Shown here: positions 33,595-42,627 of the stretch, one piece after another | How positions within the stretch are numbered: position 1 is the first letter of the stretch | Layout: each line of letters starts with the position of its first letter | Source: an uncultured Saprospiraceae bacterium | Lineage (GTDB): Bacteria > Bacteroidota > Bacteroidia > Chitinophagales > Saprospiraceae | Assembly: GCA_937959115.1 (NCBI GenBank) | Contig: CALGAW010000035.1 | Span: 186,001 to 250,000, forward strand | Length of the DNA stretch: 64,000 nucleotides | Reading direction: 5' to 3' | Notes under the pieces: generated by a model | Told to the model about the DNA's origin: nothing | Database searches by the model: none | The model's input: only the letters and a program-made list of their open reading frames with translations | Program-made: the position numbers and the translations under genes

Positions 33595-34605
33595 TTAAAA
33601 ACTCTTCCGCAATGCGACAGTTGCCCGTATCTTTCGAATCAGTTCGTCAGACTCTGCAAAATTTAGGGTTTGTTGCCCATCAGAAAATGCCTTTTCAGGC
33701 ACAGCATGTGATTCATAGATCACGCCATCTGCTCCAGCCATCACTGCTGCTAAGGCCATCGGCTCTACGTAAGCACGCAGTCCAATGCCGTGGGACGGAT
33801 CAGCAATGACGGGCAAGTGCGTCTTCTCTTTCAAGATTGGAATGGCATTCAGATCAAAGGTGTTGCGATACGCCGTTTCATAAGAGCGAATTCCGCGTTC
33901 ACACAACAACAGCTTCTCGTTGCCGCCAGAAAACACATATTCAGCACATTGTAGTAATTCATCAAGCGAACCGCTGATCCCACGCTTGAGCATAACCGGC
34001 TTGTCCACCTCACCAAGGGCATCTAGTAAATTGAAATTCTGTGAATTCCTTGCTCCCACTTGTAAGATGTCTGCATATTTACACAAATCTTCAATCTGTG
34101 AGGATTGCATGACTTCAGTGATGATTTTAATCCCAAATTCTTGTGCATGCTGATACCAGATTTTCAGTCCTTCTACTCCTAATCCTCTAAACGCATAAGG
34201 CGAGCTCCTAGGTTTATAAACACCACCCCGCATGATCTGTACACCGTTGTCTTTTAAGTGTTGGAGCACCGAGACGATCTGTTCTTCTGATTCGATGGAG
34301 CAGGGACCTGACATAATTGCAAAGTCGCCTTCACAAATTTTCACGCCATCCCCTAAGTTGATTGAAGTTGGACGAACCTTCCATTTTCTAGAAACCAGCT
34401 TGTATCCATCAGAGACTCGGTGAATATCCGACACGCCGTCCAGTCCTCCTAATTCACGAATATCGATGTCTGATTTTCCGATGCCAATCAAGTATTCTCC
34501 TTCTTGGGTAATCACATTCGTCGTTTTGTAGCCAAGGCTATTGACTTTTTGCTGAATGCTTTCTTTCTGTTTTGGCGCGATGCCTGGTTGTAGTTGAATG
34601 ATCAT
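33595..34605 (-). CDS. aroF: 3-deoxy-7-phosphoheptulonate (DAHP) synthase, last gene of the trp operon
   Basis: The enzyme condenses PEP and erythrose 4-phosphate to DAHP, the first step of the shikimate pathway. The 336-residue length and layout match the Thermotoga-type class: an N-terminal ferredoxin-like regulatory domain (about residues 1-70), then a KDPG/Kdo8PS-like barrel with 'MSGPCSIES', 'RGGVYKPRSSPYAFRGLG', 'QVGARNSQNF', 'LLCERGIRSY' and 'PVIADPSHGIG'. It follows trpA after a 193-bp gap that holds a dead PIN-domain gene. Its place in the operon lets Trp limitation raise chorismate supply together with the Trp branch. Confidence 0.95.
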   Translation of the reverse strand: MIIQLQPGIAPKQKESIQQKVNSLGYKTTNVITQEGEYLIGIGKSDIDIRELGGLDGVSDIHRVSDGYKLVSRKWKVRPTSINLGDGVKICEGDFAIMSGPCSIESEEQIVSVLQHLKDNGVQIMRGGVYKPRSSPYAFRGLGVEGLKIWYQHAQEFGIKIITEVMQSSQIEDLCKYADILQVGARNSQNFNLLDALGEVDKPVMLKRGISGSLDELLQCAEYVFSGGNEKLLLCERGIRSYETAYRNTFDLNAIPILKEKTHLPVIADPSHGIGLRAYVEPMALAAVMAGADGVIYESHAVPEKAFSDGQQTLNFAESDELIRKIRATVALRKSF

Positions 34606-34798: not shown

Positions 34799-35602
34799 CT
34801 AAGTTCCTATAATTCCCTTCACAAACCCTCCAATATTTTCCTTCAGATTTCCTTCCACCTCAAGTGCTCGAATAAATGCACTTCCAATGATCGCTCCATT
34901 TGCGAACTTACAAGCAGTGCCAAAGGACTGAGCATCAGAGATCCCAAAGCCAATAATTCTTGGGTTATTCAAGGAAAGCGTATTCATCCGTTCAAAATAG
35001 GCTAGTTGCTCCTTGGATACACCTTGTGCCTTTCCTGTAATGCTGTTGCTTGATACCATGTAAATAAATCCGTCTGTCTGCTCATCAATGTACTGGATCC
35101 GCTCCTTTGATGTCTGAGGAGTCACAAGTAGGACGTTTGATAGTTGAAAGGCATCCATGATTGGTTTATAGAATTCAGTGTATTCTACGACAGGCAAATC
35201 AGGGATAATCAATCCGTCTATTCCAATCTCGGCAGCTTGTTTGCAGAAGGCTTCTACCCCATACTGCATCACTGGGTTCAAATAGCCCATTAGTAGGAGA
35301 GGAATGCTAACAGTCTTTCTGATATCCTTTAGTTGTTCGAATAAGAGTTGTAGTGTCATTCCATTGTCTAGCGCTACTTTGTTGCTTTTCTGAATGGTTT
35401 CTCCGTCTGCCACTGGATCTGAAAATGGGATACCGATCTCTACCATGTTTACACCGCTTTCTTCTAAGGTTTGTAGGATGAGCGGTAAGTCATTTAGATT
35501 TGGGAATCCCGCGGTACAGAAGATGGAAAGTACGCCGTTCTTCTTTTGTTTGAAGAGTTCGGTGATTCGGTTGTCTAATTGCTTTTTTATTGTTGTTTTC
35601 AT
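34799..35602 (-). CDS. trpA: Tryptophan synthase alpha subunit
   Basis: TrpA cleaves indole-3-glycerol phosphate to indole and glyceraldehyde 3-phosphate, and indole is channelled to TrpB. The 267-residue TIM barrel has 'VEIGIPFSDPVADGETIQ', which contains the catalytic Glu and Asp. It also has 'LLLMGYLNPVMQYG', 'GLIIPDLPVVE' and the phosphate-binding 'GFGISDAQSF'. It is separated from trpB by 105 bp. Confidence 0.97.
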   Translation of the reverse strand: MKTTIKKQLDNRITELFKQKKNGVLSIFCTAGFPNLNDLPLILQTLEESGVNMVEIGIPFSDPVADGETIQKSNKVALDNGMTLQLLFEQLKDIRKTVSIPLLLMGYLNPVMQYGVEAFCKQAAEIGIDGLIIPDLPVVEYTEFYKPIMDAFQLSNVLLVTPQTSKERIQYIDEQTDGFIYMVSSNSITGKAQGVSKEQLAYFERMNTLSLNNPRIIGFGISDAQSFGTACKFANGAIIGSAFIRALEVEGNLKENIGGFVKGIIGT

Positions 35603-35707: not shown

Positions 35708-36886
35708 TTAACCACAATACGTTATATAAGTTGCTAAATCTTTGTCTCCTCTTCCTGATAGATTAATTACCACCACTGCATCCTTGTCAAACGTGATCTT
35801 CTCTAGCACTGCCAAGGCATGCGCTGACTCTATTGCTGGAATGATTCCTTCCAGTTTACACAACTGCAGACCTGCTTCCATTGCTTCCTTATCAGTAATT
35901 GGGTGAAAGACTGCGCGCCTAGTTTCGTGTAGATGCGCGTGTACTGGTCCGATGCCAGGATAATCGAGTCCTGCTGAGATGGAGTAGGGCTCGACCACTT
36001 GTCCGTCGGGTGTTTGCATGAGTAGGGTTTTACTGCCGTGTAATACGCCAGCTTTTCCTAGGATGGTGGTCGCTGCGGATTCACCTGATGAAATACCGTG
36101 GCCTGCGGCTTCTGCTCCAATTAGTTGAACAGATGGATCATTTAGATAATGGTAAAACGCGCCCATGGCATTGCTTCCACCGCCTACACAAGCAATAATG
36201 CAAGTCGGCAACTCATCACCAGTTTGCTCTTCTAGCTGCCAACGCATCTCTTCACTGATGACGGACTGGAATCTTGCGACCATATCAGGATAAGGGTGTG
36301 GACCCACCACTGAGCCAATGATGTAATGCGTGTCGGTTGGGTTGTTAATCCAATGGCGCATGGCTTCATTGGTGGCATCTTTAAGGGTTTGGCTGCCAGA
36401 GGTTGCAGGAACGACCTTAGCTCCTAGTAACTTCATACGCTCTACATTTGGCTTTTGCCGTTCGATGTCTATTGATCCCATGTACACAATGCAATCCATG
36501 CCCATGAGGGCGCAGACGGTGGCTGTGGCAACGCCATGTTGGCCAGCGCCAGTCTCTGCAATAATCTTTTGTTTTCCAAGGCGCTTTGCTAGGAGGATTT
36601 GCCCAAGTGTATTGTTTACTTTATGTGCACCAGTATGATTCAAATCTTCTCGTTTGAGGAATACGTTGGTGTCGTATTTTCTTGAGAGCCGTTCTGCTTT
36701 GTACAAGGGGGAAGGTCGTCCTACATAATCTTTTAATAGTTGCTGAAACTCTTGTTGGAAGCCAGGAGATTCCATTATTTCTAGGTAGTTTTGGCGTAAT
36801 TCTTCTACGTTTTGGTACAACATTTCTGGAATGTAAGCGCCACCAAAATTTCCATAATAGCCTCTTGAATTTACTTGATAGGTCAT
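35708..36886 (-). CDS. trpB: Tryptophan synthase beta subunit
   Basis: TrpB is the PLP enzyme that joins indole and serine to form tryptophan. The 392-residue protein has '[18 protein letters not shown]', '[12 protein letters not shown]' and the PLP lysine in '[13 protein letters not shown]'. It also has '[12 protein letters not shown]' and the phosphate cradle 'GGGSNAMG'. Its start codon overlaps the trpF stop by 4 bp (ATGA type), so translation is coupled. It is the standard TrpB1 type that pairs with TrpA. Confidence 0.97.
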
Positions 36887-37539
36887 AATTGAATCTTTTT
36901 TTGTTCCATTGCTTGTTTGAATGCTTCAATTGCTTGAATGTCCTTCAATCCTGGACTGATTTCAAACTGACTGTTAAGGTCAATTGCTTTGAATTTTGGG
37001 TGTTCGAATGTTTTGATTGCTTCTAGGCTTTCTGGTCCTATTCCTCCACTAAGAAAAAACGGCTTGTCTTGTGTATAGAAGTCTAATACCTCCCAATTAA
37101 AGGAAATGCCATTGCCGCCACGTTCTTTGCCTTTTGTGTCAAATAAATAGGAATCGGTACATTCGCCGAAAGGCAAAACAGACCGAATATCAAAAAATGC
37201 ACCTACTGAAAATACCTTTATAATTTCAACACCTAATTCCTTGATCTGATTGCAGAAACTAGGTGTCTCATCACCATGTAATTGCACAGCATTTAGTTGA
37301 TAACGGTCGACTTTTTCCTTGACGTAGGCGGGTGATGCATTTACAAAAACGCCCGTCTTTTTAATGGAGTCAGGGATTAGAGCGGTTAATTCAGGGTCAA
37401 AGTTTTCTCCTACGAAACGTTTTGATTTTACATAGAAAATAAACCCCATATACTGCGGTTGCAAAGCGGTAAGCGCCTTGATGTTTTGAGCATCCCGCAT
37501 CCCACAAACCTTTAATTCTATTTGTCTAGGCGTATTCAT
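36883..37539 (-). CDS. trpF: Phosphoribosylanthranilate isomerase
   Basis: TrpF performs the Amadori rearrangement of N-(5-phosphoribosyl)anthranilate to CdRP. The 218-residue barrel has the catalytic Cys in '[12 protein letters not shown]', then '[12 protein letters not shown]', '[12 protein letters not shown]' and the phosphate site '[10 protein letters not shown]'. It stands as a separate gene rather than fused to trpC as in enterics. It is 1 bp from trpC and overlaps trpB by 4 bp. Confidence 0.96.
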
Positions 37540-37540
37540 G

Positions 37541-38359
37541 CTAGGCGGATATTGTTGTTTTAGATACTTCTAATGCCTTAATTTCCTCAATAAATCGGGC
37601 GCACGCTTGTTCTGGTCTGCTGTGTTTCATGAATTGCTCACCGATCAAGAAACCATCAAATCCTGCTTGGCGTAGTTTGACAACGGTTGCTGGATCTGAT
37701 ATGCCACTTTCTGAAATCCGTACAAGGTTTGAAGGCATGAATTCTAGGAGATTGAGGGACGTTTCGACACTGACCTCGAATGTCTTAAGATTGCGGTTAT
37801 TCACACCAACAATATCGATAAACTCGTTGAGGTGGCTGTCTAATTCCGCCTTGTCATGTACTTCCATTAAGACCTCTAACCCAAGGCTATGAGCAAACTG
37901 TGCAAGCTTTTTAAGTTCATGGGGTGGAAGCACGGCAGCAATCAGTAAAATTGCATCCGCACCAATGCTTCTCGCTTCAATGATTTGGTATTCATTTAAC
38001 ATAAAATCCTTACGGAGAATAGGACAGTAATTAAATTTACGAGCGGTGGTAAGGTCTTCAGTTTTCCCACCAAAAAAATGCTGATCAGTCAAAACAGAAA
38101 TAGCTGAAGCGCCTGCCTGCATGTATCCAATTGATGTCCGTTCAATCGAAACATAAGGATTAATTGCTCCTTTTGAAGGTGATTTACGCTTGATTTCAGC
38201 AATGATACCTAGCTTATCTGTTCGTTTGATGTATTGCTTTAACGAAACGCAAGGTGTATTGAAATAGATACTTTGTTCAAGGAGTTTCACCGGCACCAAT
38301 GCTTGGCGTTCTTTTATGATTTCCTTTTTGTGTGCAACAATATCGTCAAGTATGCTCAT
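37541..38359 (-). CDS. trpC: Indole-3-glycerol phosphate synthase
   Basis: TrpC closes the indole ring from CdRP with loss of CO2. The 272-residue barrel has the catalytic Lys in 'IIAEIKRKSPSKG', then 'ISVLTDQHFFGG', 'LRKDFMLNEYQI', 'VGVNNRNLKTFEV' and 'RISESGISD'. It lies 9 bp downstream of trpD and 1 bp upstream of trpF. Confidence 0.97.
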   Translation of the reverse strand: MSILDDIVAHKKEIIKERQALVPVKLLEQSIYFNTPCVSLKQYIKRTDKLGIIAEIKRKSPSKGAINPYVSIERTSIGYMQAGASAISVLTDQHFFGGKTEDLTTARKFNYCPILRKDFMLNEYQIIEARSIGADAILLIAAVLPPHELKKLAQFAHSLGLEVLMEVHDKAELDSHLNEFIDIVGVNNRNLKTFEVSVETSLNLLEFMPSNLVRISESGISDPATVVKLRQAGFDGFLIGEQFMKHSRPEQACARFIEEIKALEVSKTTISA

Positions 38360-38368
38360 AGTATTATT

Positions 38369-39355
38369 TTATGCGATGAATGTTTTAAATGCTTTTAACG
38401 CTGCGCCAGACAGTAGAGACTCTTTTGCAATGTCAATTGTTTCTTCAAGTGTTTTGTTAGGGTGTGCGCAGCGAATTGCTAGCCCGGCATTTGCCATTAC
38501 AGCGTTGTTTTGTGCTGAGGTGCCATTGCCTTTTAAGATGGTTTCAAATATCTTTGCTGCTTCCTCTACTGTGGTTCCTCCAGCCAACTCTTTTGGGTCT
38601 AACTGTTTGAAATTCAAGTGACTTGGGTCTAAAATTTGCTCTGCTTCATTTGTGATCACCTTAAACTTGCCTGTCAGGGAAATTTCGTCATATCCATCCA
38701 GTGCATGCACAATAGCGAATTGCTTGTCACTTTGCTGATACAGATAACCATACAATCTTGCTAGCTCAAGGCTAAAGACACCTACTAGTTGACGTTTCAC
38801 CCTAGCAGGGTTGACCATTGGGCCAAGCATGTTAAAAAACGTCTTTACGCCCATTTGTCGCCTTACTGGGGCAACTTCTTTCATGGCAGGGTGAAACAAA
38901 GGCGCATGGAGGAAACAAATACCTGCTTGATCGATTTTGCGTTCAATCTCACTAATATCATTGGTGAACTTATAGCCAAAGTACTCGATTACATTTGAGG
39001 AGCCAGAGACGGATGAGACACCATAGTTTCCATGTTTGGCAACCTTTACACCTGCGCCGGCTGTAACGAAGGACGCAAGGGTAGATATGTTGAAGGTGTC
39101 TTTCCCATCGCCTCCTGTACCACATAAATCAACGGGATTGTACCCAGACAAATCGACTGGAATACAAAGTTCCAACATCGCATCACGAAAGCCTTCTAGT
39201 TCTTCTACCTTGATGCCCCGCATGATAAACACAGTCAAAAACGAAGCGATTTGCATTTGGTTGAATTCTCCCTTCCCTATGCTAATCAGGATCGATTTTG
39301 CTTCTTGCCTTGATAGCGTGTTATGCTCGAATAAATGTGTTAACGTCTTTTTCAT
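38369..39355 (-). CDS. trpD: Anthranilate phosphoribosyltransferase
   Basis: TrpD transfers phosphoribosyl from PRPP to anthranilate. From the ATG at 39355 it has 328 residues, with the PRPP-binding 'LCGTGGDGKDTFNIST' (about residues 75-90), 'KHGNYGVSSVSGSSNV' and 'FLHAPLFHPAM'. An in-frame TTG at 39364 would add three residues; I prefer the ATG. It is not fused to trpG, which lies 60 bp upstream. Confidence 0.97.
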   Translation of the reverse strand: MKKTLTHLFEHNTLSRQEAKSILISIGKGEFNQMQIASFLTVFIMRGIKVEELEGFRDAMLELCIPVDLSGYNPVDLCGTGGDGKDTFNISTLASFVTAGAGVKVAKHGNYGVSSVSGSSNVIEYFGYKFTNDISEIERKIDQAGICFLHAPLFHPAMKEVAPVRRQMGVKTFFNMLGPMVNPARVKRQLVGVFSLELARLYGYLYQQSDKQFAIVHALDGYDEISLTGKFKVITNEAEQILDPSHLNFKQLDPKELAGGTTVEEAAKIFETILKGNGTSAQNNAVMANAGLAIRCAHPNKTLEETIDIAKESLLSGAALKAFKTFIA

Positions 39356-39415
39356 AAAGTGCAATGTTGTCTGTCTTAAGTCATCTGAATTAGATTCTGT
39401 CAGTTATTTAGGCGA

Positions 39416-39988
<573 letters not shown>

Positions 39989-39990
39989 GA

Positions 39991-41394
39991 TTACAGGGTA
40001 TTTGCTAGTTCTATGGCGGTTCTTAATGCTTTTAATTTGTGGTTGACCTCTTCCAGTTCACTTTGTACATTTGACTTGGAAACTACGCCTGCTCCTGCTT
40101 GATAATTCAGTTGATTGTGTTGGCTAAGGAAGGATCTGATCATGATTGCATGATTGAAATTTCCGTTAAAGCCAATAAAACCAATGCATCCACCATAGTA
40201 TCCACGATTTGTGTTTTCATATTCATTAATCAATTCCATCGCTTTGTATTTTGGAGCGCCAGATAGCGTTCCTGCAGGAAAGGTATCACCAACTAATTGC
40301 AAGGGATTTTCCGCTTTTATGTCAGCGGTTACCTTGGAAACCAGATGTATCAGGTGTGAGTAAAACTGTATTTCTTTGAACGTGTCTACGGTGACGTTGT
40401 GTCCGTGGCGGCTTAGGTCGTTGCGTGCTAGGTCGACTAGCATGGTGTGCTCAGCGTTTTCCTTTGGGTCGTTGAAGAGGCGTTCTGCTTCCTCTGCATC
40501 TTGCTTGTCGTTGCCTGTTCGCTTGAATGTGCCTGCTATTGGGTGAATGCTTGCCTTGTCATTGCTAATAATAATCTGAGCTTCGGGCGATGAGCCAAAT
40601 ACTTTATAGCTTCCGTAGTCAAAATAATATAGATACGGGGATGGATTGACGGAGCGCAGTGTGCGGTAAACGTTGAACTCATCTCCTGAAAACGGTTGGC
40701 TAAACCTTCTAGAGAGGACGATTTGAAACACGTCTCCTAGTTGGCAGTGGTCTTTTCCTTTTTGTAGGATGGTTAAAAATTCATCATCTTTAAAATTAGA
40801 AAATTCTTTTTCATTAGTTTGAAAACCAAAGGCCTGCGTGTTTTTTTGCTTGAGGTAATTTGCGAATTGACCAATTTCTGAGGACTGATTATCGGATAGG
40901 TGTTCGAAGATATGTAGCTCATTATTAAAATGGTTAATTGCAATCACAAACCGATAAGCATGGTAAAGGATATCAGGAATGGTCTTTCCTTTTTCAGTGT
41001 ACGTCTTTGTTTCAATATCCTCAAAATACCGGACAGCGTCGTAAGCGATGTAGCCAAATACACCGTTGGTGATGAACTTATAGTCAAATTCCTGTACTTC
41101 AAATTGCTGGATAAAATTGAAGAGGTCGCTGGTCACTTGTCCCTTGGTGCTGATGGCTGTTTTTTGTGTTGGGTGGCCTGGGAGCTCTTGAGTGATGGTG
41201 TTGGCTGAGACCTCAAATTTGGCAATCGGTTCACAGCAGATGTAGGAGTAGTTGTTATCATTTGCCCGATAGTCTGAGCTTTCCAATAGTATTGTATTGG
41301 CGAACTTATCCCTAAGATTCAGATAAAGGCTTACCGGCGTGAGCGTGTCAGCCAAGTATTTTTGATGATATGTTGTTAATTTGATCTTTTCCAT
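39991..41394 (-). CDS. trpE: Anthranilate synthase component I
   Basis: TrpE converts chorismate to anthranilate with ammonia from TrpG. The 467-residue protein keeps the feedback motif 'LLESSD' (residues 36-41), the known Trp-binding site in enterics. It has the catalytic chorismate domain with 'FQIVLSRRFSQPF', 'PIAGTFKRTG', 'LVDLARNDLSRHG', 'FPAGTLSGAPKYKAMELI' and 'GAGVVSKSNVQSE'. It is the first structural gene of the operon, and the U tract of the leader terminator ends a few bases before its ATG. Confidence 0.97.
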   Translation of the reverse strand: MEKIKLTTYHQKYLADTLTPVSLYLNLRDKFANTILLESSDYRANDNNYSYICCEPIAKFEVSANTITQELPGHPTQKTAISTKGQVTSDLFNFIQQFEVQEFDYKFITNGVFGYIAYDAVRYFEDIETKTYTEKGKTIPDILYHAYRFVIAINHFNNELHIFEHLSDNQSSEIGQFANYLKQKNTQAFGFQTNEKEFSNFKDDEFLTILQKGKDHCQLGDVFQIVLSRRFSQPFSGDEFNVYRTLRSVNPSPYLYYFDYGSYKVFGSSPEAQIIISNDKASIHPIAGTFKRTGNDKQDAEEAERLFNDPKENAEHTMLVDLARNDLSRHGHNVTVDTFKEIQFYSHLIHLVSKVTADIKAENPLQLVGDTFPAGTLSGAPKYKAMELINEYENTNRGYYGGCIGFIGFNGNFNHAIMIRSFLSQHNQLNYQAGAGVVSKSNVQSELEEVNHKLKALRTAIELANTL

Positions 41395-41396
41395 AA

Positions 41397-41423
41397 TAAA
41401 AAAGACCTGCGAACAGCAGGCCT
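41397..41423 (-). terminator. trp attenuator (intrinsic terminator before trpE)
   Basis: On the minus strand AGGCCTGC (41416-41423) pairs with GCAGGTCT (41403-41410), one pair being G-U, around a 5-nt loop, followed by six T residues that end a few bases before the trpE ATG at 41394. Confidence 0.85.
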
Positions 41424-41462
41424 CAAAATCGTTTATTTAATTACACAAACACATTGGCTGGT

Positions 41463-41525
41463 TCACAAATCGGAGTTCGATTTAAGCCACCACCAATTGG
41501 TATTTGAGTATGTATTATTTTGCAT
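41463..41525 (-). CDS. trpL: trp leader peptide with three consecutive Trp codons
   Basis: A 20-codon frame starts at ATG 41525 (or 41528, giving Met-Met) and ends at TGA 41463. Codons 11-13 are TGG TGG TGG (41487-41495), inside 'NTNWWWLKS'. It lies 69 bp before trpE, between a good promoter and the attenuator. Trp is the rarest amino acid, so three in a row in a short frame at this place is strong evidence for a stalling peptide. The ATG is only a few nucleotides from the inferred transcript start, so it may be translated as a leaderless mRNA. Confidence 0.82.
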   Translation of the reverse strand: MQNNTYSNTNWWWLKSNSDL

Positions 41526-41533
41526 CATTAAAA

Positions 41534-41565
41534 CAAACATAGGGAATTGATAGGATTTGTTCAAG
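41534..41565 (-). promoter_or_regulatory. trp operon promoter (Bacteroidota type)
   Basis: On the minus strand, CTTG (41562-41565, one mismatch to the -33 TTTG) and TATGTTTG (41534-41541, matching -7 TAnnTTTG) are separated by a 20-bp spacer. Transcription should start near 41530. Confidence 0.65.
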
Positions 41566-41733
41566 TTATTTTGGAAAAAGTTTTGAAATACTATTTTGAA
41601 GATCTTTGACTAAATAAGTTCCTTCTTTTAAGGGATGTATTGTTAATTTAATTAGCATTAATTTTGTATCTTGATAATCCAAACCACCCTATTACAGAAA
41701 GAAAAAGTCAACTAATCAATTTAAAATTAAATT

Positions 41734-42627
41734 ATGAATCATTACATAATTGTCTTCGTATTTATAATGTTAACTGGATCCATTTCAGCACAAAATGTTG
41801 GAATCGGGACCGTCACACCAGACTCAAAGCTAACCGTAGTAGGTAATGTAAACATTGGAGGACCTGGAAATGCAAGTCTTAAAGTCAGGCATGTAAATGG
41901 TAAGAAACATAATTCGACAGATCTCGATCATCTTTATCTTAATTATAATAATGGAAAACATGTTTATGTTGGATATGGGCCAGACACTACCTCTAGCCTT
42001 CTTGTAGGACGAAATTTAGTCATTGAAAAAGGTGTTTATGTTAAAGACGGATGGGTAAGAGTCTATAAAAATTCTGGTCTTTATTTTCAAGACCATGGTG
42101 GAGGATTGTTCATGGTAGATCCTACTTGGATTAGAACATACGGAGGGAAAAGCTTTTATCATTCAACAGGTATAATGCGTACAGATGGTTCGTTGCATGT
42201 AGGACCAAGTGGGAATAGATTACGTGTTGATGCAAACGGCAACGTAGGGATTAACACAACAACACCTGATCATGAGCTTGACGTCAATGGTATGATGCGC
42301 GCCAAGGAAGTACTTGTTGAATCAGGCTGGAGTGATTATGTGTTCTTGCCCGGGTACGACCTTCCTACTTTAGATAAAGAAGAACAGTTTATTGCTGAAC
42401 ACGGTCACCTATTGGGGTTTGAATCTGAGGCAGCAATGGCTGGTCAAATTCAATTAGGGGATGTAACAAACCGCCAACAGGCAAAAATTGAAGAAGTAGT
42501 GCTCCATCTAATTCAAATCAACAAAGATATGGAGCAAGTTCAAGCAGAAAATCAGCAGCTTAAGAAGGAGAATATAGAGATGAAGGAATCTTTGGAAAGA
42601 ATTATGGAGTTGCTTGATCGAGAGTAG
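41734..42627 (+). CDS. Exported tail-fibre/shufflon-like protein with C-terminal coiled coil
   Basis: The 297-residue protein has a signal peptide ending SISAQ, then two 'VGIGT-TP-SKLxV-GN'-type segments (about residues 22-35 and 169-185, 'GNVGINTTTPDHELDVNG'). A conserved C-terminal module follows: 'AKEVLVESGWSDYVF', 'EEQFIAEHGHLLGFESEAA', then a coiled coil of about 50 residues ('KDMEQVQAENQQLKKENIEM'). This family is abundant in Bacteroidota and related to phage tail-fibre tips, but here it is exported and probably surface-bound. It lacks both the S74 chaperone and a T9SS domain. Its function is unknown. Confidence 0.75.
   Translation: MNHYIIVFVFIMLTGSISAQNVGIGTVTPDSKLTVVGNVNIGGPGNASLKVRHVNGKKHNSTDLDHLYLNYNNGKHVYVGYGPDTTSSLLVGRNLVIEKGVYVKDGWVRVYKNSGLYFQDHGGGLFMVDPTWIRTYGGKSFYHSTGIMRTDGSLHVGPSGNRLRVDANGNVGINTTTPDHELDVNGMMRAKEVLVESGWSDYVFLPGYDLPTLDKEEQFIAEHGHLLGFESEAAMAGQIQLGDVTNRQQAKIEEVVLHLIQINKDMEQVQAENQQLKKENIEMKESLERIMELLDRE

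Follow-up and report, generated by a model that had tools for sequence, protein, structure and literature searches.

A predicted ribosome-mediated attenuator with three tandem Trp codons in front of the trp operon of an uncultured Saprospiraceae bacterium

How is the tryptophan operon of an uncultured Saprospiraceae bacterium adjusted to the supply of the amino acid? The question is raised by a short region in a stretch of 64,000 nucleotides (contig CALGAW010000035.1, positions 186,001 to 250,000), called here the window, within which all coordinates are given. An earlier note, made from the letters alone, had read positions 41395–41565 as a leader that attenuates the trp genes by means of a peptide with three consecutive tryptophans. 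We consider it very probable that the region is a ribosome-mediated transcription attenuator that senses charged tRNA-Trp, a prediction based on sequence comparison and modelling. Conserved Trp codons, covarying alternative helices and a predicted fold that flips with the position of the ribosome all support the earlier reading.

Layout of the leader and of the trp operon

A complete trpEGDCFBA set lies downstream of the leader on the minus strand, to which all window features given below belong unless stated otherwise. It comprises trpE, for component I of anthranilate synthase (39991–41394), trpG (39416–39988), trpD (38369–39364), trpC (37541–38359), trpF (36883–37539), trpB (35708–36886) and trpA (34799–35602). 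A DAHP synthase gene (33595–34605) follows 3' of trpA on the same strand and, judging by position and strand, is possibly the last gene of the operon, so that the attenuator may also control the entry into the shikimate pathway. Beside the trp promoter, a divergent gene (41734–42627, plus strand) has a signal-peptide-like start and a single sub-threshold Pfam match, Shufflon_N; a search for an NCBIfam match to it found none.

The leader frame, MQNNTYSNTNWWWLKSNSDL followed by a stop codon, has 20 codons at 41463–41525 and carries TGG TGG TGG at codons 11–13 (41487–41495), just where the earlier note had placed them. Trp attenuators as a class have a short frame, open to translation, in which Trp codons stand in tandem (region 1, the sensing part), and such a frame is found here 5' of the trp genes. 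The start codon is a predicted one, and an alternative in-frame ATG stands one codon further 5' (41526–41528).

The promoter that had been proposed for the leader is present and is of the Bacteroidota type. It consists of a -33 element TTG (41562–41564), with comparable boxes 5' of the -7 box in relatives, and a -7 element TATGTTTG (41534–41541) that fits TAnnTTTG, with a spacer of 20 bp between them. In two sets of relatives, 55/96 and 58/73 leader ATGs have an exact TAnnTTTG box within the 80 nt 5' of them, when about 5 are expected per set, and the box often lies just 4–15 nt from the ATG. The gap between the -7 box and the first leader ATG is 5 nt in the window, and the leader mRNA is therefore predicted to be almost leaderless, with transcription probably starting at about 41526–41530. 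The median 5' UTR is given as 24 and 32 nt in two Bacteroidota studied, in which leaderless mRNAs amount to a few per cent (PMC9723704; PMC7366714).

Folding of the leader is more stable than that of each of 200 dinucleotide shuffles (200/200, z -3.4). A protector hairpin, 1:2, includes the Trp codons and extends over the stop codon (41442–41510). Between the leader and the first structural gene there is an intrinsic terminator, the second feature that marks attenuators as a class, formed by a 9-bp hairpin with a 5-nt loop (41402–41424) and a T-tract (41398–41403). It is the sole terminator-like site on either strand of 41200–41800, where 0.2 would be expected, and it abuts the trpE ATG at 41394, which bears out the earlier description of a U tract ending beside that codon. 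Besides these hairpins, folding and covariation point to an antiterminator. Its 5' strand (region 2, 41456–41471) overlaps the leader stop codon, and its 3' partner (41404–41422) is made up of the terminator loop, the 3' arm and a few bases of the 5' arm, with 11 contiguous pairs to the loop and 3' arm.

Conservation and covariation of the leader in Bacteroidota

For comparison, regions upstream of trpE were sampled in four sets, drawn from the same family (Saprospiraceae), from other Bacteroidota genomes and from the phylum as a whole, and a leader was counted when a frame of 7–60 codons with W.?W lay within 350 nt 5' of trpE. First-order shuffles and the opposite strand served as controls. 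Trp-rich leader frames were found at 103/108 same-family loci, at 74/79 and 48/49 loci of other Bacteroidia, and at 15/20 loci of other classes; in the same order, the shuffles gave 5, 2.8, 1.2 and 1.2 such frames and the opposite strand 3, 1, 0 and 3. The triplet WWW was present in 81, 64, 42 and 13 loci of the four sets and in none of any control. The earlier note had named the lack of a conserved Trp run in close relatives as a reason to give up its reading, and this case is excluded by the conservation found.

A few same-family loci depart from the pattern. One of them, a near relative (L087), has a terminator like that of the window, GGTCTGC..GCAGACC, and the W.?W scan of 350 nt found no Trp-rich leader frame upstream of its trpE, for which decay or another sensor are suggested as alternatives. 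No leader frame was found upstream of trpE in four others (L097, L099, L116 and L169), where trpE may lie inside a longer transcript. Other loci carry two WWW frames upstream of trpE, each with a terminator after it; they are L049, L051, L054, L058 and L070, all of them Marivirga, and L148 from the family of the window. We read these pairs as putative tandem trp attenuators.

The pairings are conserved as well. Native 1:2 pairing in relatives is stronger than that with shuffled partners (z -14) and with mismatched partners (z -6). Covariation of the antiterminator was assessed by comparing native duplexes with those between partners from different species, over 75 non-redundant terminator apices. 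The duplex between the stop-codon region and the apex has a mean energy of -11.5 kcal/mol for native partners vs -8.0 for mismatched ones (z -12.4, in a permutation that ignores kinship). The same permutation test gave z -2.2 for the right arm alone and z +2.0 for an upstream control region, and no covariation of the stop region with the left arm alone (z -0.08). The left arm hardly varies and is thus unable to show covariation, so it may still take part in the antiterminator; the best duplexes do often take in left-arm bases. Conserved Trp codons and covariation, both of which the earlier note had proposed to look for in relatives, are therefore found. The competing pairing that it had drawn for the stop-codon region stands as to its kind, since an alternative helix does covary, and not as to its place, which is mainly the loop and 3' arm, with a few bases of the left arm. 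The antiterminator is likely centred on the terminator apex rather than on the left arm.

Predicted switching and the alternatives to it

The leader had been expected to fold in two ways, and the fold predicted for the window flips between a stalled and a terminating ribosome. The ribosome was modelled as a mask, with a simplified footprint and simplified folding; the mask ends 14 nt downstream of the first base of the codon at which the ribosome stands. At equilibrium, the window's terminator forms with a probability of 0.94 in free RNA and of 0.05 when a ribosome is stalled at the first Trp codon; for the third Trp codon the value is 0.003, and for the stop codon it is 0.97. The trpL leader of E. 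coli is a proven attenuator, and as a control it gave 0.97 when free, 0.82 at the first and at the second Trp codon, and 0.97 at the stop codon. In full-length equilibrium folding of 96 family members, the same-genus relative L083 included, the terminator prevails in all ribosome states (mean probability about 0.93 even when stalled), a limit to which E. coli trpL is subject in milder form. In most relatives, L083 among them, the switch must then be kinetic, and for this reason the modelling was repeated for a terminator still being transcribed. When 4 nt of the 3' arm have emerged, the mean antiterminator probability in the 96 relatives is 0.90 with a stalled ribosome, 0.12 with one at the stop codon and 0.29 in free RNA, and E. 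coli gave 0.80 stalled and 0.02 at the stop codon. The third feature of the attenuator class is an antiterminator that excludes the terminator, becomes available when a ribosome stalls at the Trp codons and is hidden when one stands at the stop codon; here it is found in computation only.

The following mechanism would be consistent with these results. When Trp is plentiful, the leading ribosome would pass WWW and reach the stop codon, where it would cover the overlapping antiterminator strand; the terminator would then fold and transcription would end beside the trpE ATG. When Trp is scarce, the ribosome would stall on the Trp codons and open the 1:2 protector hairpin, and the strand over the stop codon, about 20 nt further downstream, would become free. 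The freed strand would pair with the emerging terminator loop, the 3' arm and part of the 5' arm, and RNA polymerase would continue into trpEGDCFBA and probably into the DAHP synthase gene. In an untranslated leader the 1:2 hairpin would form, with termination as the default. Both the kinetics of this switch and its response to Trp are predictions.

Could the leader act on translation instead, the hairpin beside the ATG hiding the start of trpE and the antiterminator exposing it? In the window the hairpin and T-tract do end right beside that ATG, and some effect on initiation is possible. As the main function we find it improbable, since a T-tract comes after the hairpin, as it does in intrinsic terminators, and the distance between terminator and trpE ATG varies widely in relatives (median 30 nt, 5–95% range 13.5–111 nt), so that masking of the start codon is not conserved. 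Even less credit is given to control by a protein or by uncharged tRNA, with the Trp-rich frame having no regulatory part. TrpR, TRAP and T-box elements are alternative trp controls in other phyla. In the draft genome (96% completeness) no match was found to the Trp repressor (PF01371) or to TRAP (PF02081), and Rfam scans of the leader, over a 14 kb stretch and over 201 nt, found no T-box; the conservation of the Trp codons and of the covarying helices also argues against such control by itself. Since TrpR and TRAP were not found, control by Trp may be exerted mainly through the leader.

It is hardly conceivable that a short frame with a TGG run came by chance to lie beside an ordinary terminator. 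The motif TGGTGGTGG is common enough to invite the thought, with 236 occurrences in the genome of the window. Against it stand the conservation of the leader at trpE in >90% of Bacteroidia loci, the complete absence of WWW from shuffles and from the opposite strand, and the covariation of the terminator apex.

Attenuation may not be confined to trp in this genome. A His-rich leader frame, MYNSNLHHHHHFLNAHAM followed by a stop codon, lies upstream of hisG (G000:C7, L291, minus strand; offsets of about 1186 for the leader and about 1350 for hisG); a TATATTTG box stands upstream of the frame, and hisG is preceded by a strong terminator. By its parts this is probably a his attenuator, which suggests that the use of attenuation extends to his; no switch appeared when the hisG leader was folded at equilibrium. 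The genome holds trp and hisG, and no match was found in it to prephenate dehydratase (PF00800; pheA) or to dihydroxy-acid dehydratase (PF00920; ilvD), so that auxotrophy for Phe and branched-chain amino acids, or gaps in the draft, are possible. The motif TGGTGGTGG was rejected as a finder of other Trp-controlled genes, being too common.

Relation to known attenuators and meaning for Bacteroidota

The earlier note held that classical attenuation is little described in this phylum, a view that does not stand. Rfam has a family for the tryptophan peptide leader RNA of Bacteroidetes, RF01692 or Bacteroid-trp (Weinberg et al. 2010, PMC2864571 Table 1). For Flavobacterium psychrophilum, a 2021 transcriptome report gives strong clues that amino-acid operons are attenuated through leader peptides, and its data support structured 5' regions (PMC9723704). 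Those leaders share the phylum and the proposed mechanism with ours, and the conserved elements named in the main text of the report include pheA and hisG, not trp (PMC9723704). Going by these two sources, trp leader attenuation is an already known kind in Bacteroidota.

The window aligns end to end with RF01692 (model positions 1–131) at 27.3 bits, below the gathering score of 49, and shares with it the phylum, the Trp-codon leader upstream of the trp genes and the 1:2 hairpin followed by the terminator left arm. Two relatives with the same layout score above the cut-off (L192, 56.5 bits; G019, 49.2 bits), and whole-genome searches with stricter filters (E 0.001) matched 4/61 family genomes, one of them above it. 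The copy in the window is too diverged for the model to recognise. Moreover, the RF01692 consensus stops in the terminator left arm, so that the apex and 3'-arm partner of the antiterminator falls outside the model. With RF00513, Trp_leader, the window scores 23.6 bits (E 0.0067 in a 201-nt search), below the 41-bit cut-off. Neither trp leader family came up in the Rfam scan of the 14 kb stretch, and the 201-nt scan gave both, below threshold.

With E. coli trpL the window shares the tandem-Trp leader peptide, the alternative 1:2, 2:3 and terminator hairpins, the position of the terminator before trpE, and the stalled-versus-stop behaviour in the folding controls. It differs in having WWW rather than WW, a Bacteroidota promoter and no TrpR found in the genome. 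The partner of region 2 is the terminator left arm in E. coli, whereas covariation in the window's family lies in the loop and the top of the 3' arm. The trpL transcript of the alphaproteobacterium Sinorhizobium meliloti reportedly begins at the leader start codon, and in this respect the near-zero 5' UTR predicted for the window may be likened to that trp leader-peptide attenuator; its peptide, peTrpL, is said to have functions in trans.

The window copy, the phylum-wide breadth, the apex-centred antiterminator, the very short predicted leader 5' UTRs and the putative tandem attenuators of Marivirga appear to be additions to what was known. On balance we incline to the view that the antiterminator of this Bacteroidota family captures the terminator apex (the loop and the top of the 3' arm), and not the 5' arm as in E. 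coli, through the strand that overlaps the stop codon. This would block nucleation of the hairpin; the design would often go with a leader mRNA that is almost leaderless, and at some loci it would occur in tandem. Bacteroidota mostly lack Shine-Dalgarno sequences, and an almost leaderless leader peptide would thus bear on how ribosome and RNA polymerase are coupled there. The mapped antiterminator offers precise, testable mutations. On this evidence almost all sampled trpE genes of Bacteroidota would have an attenuator with a Trp-codon leader, and the curated RNA family detects far fewer of them.
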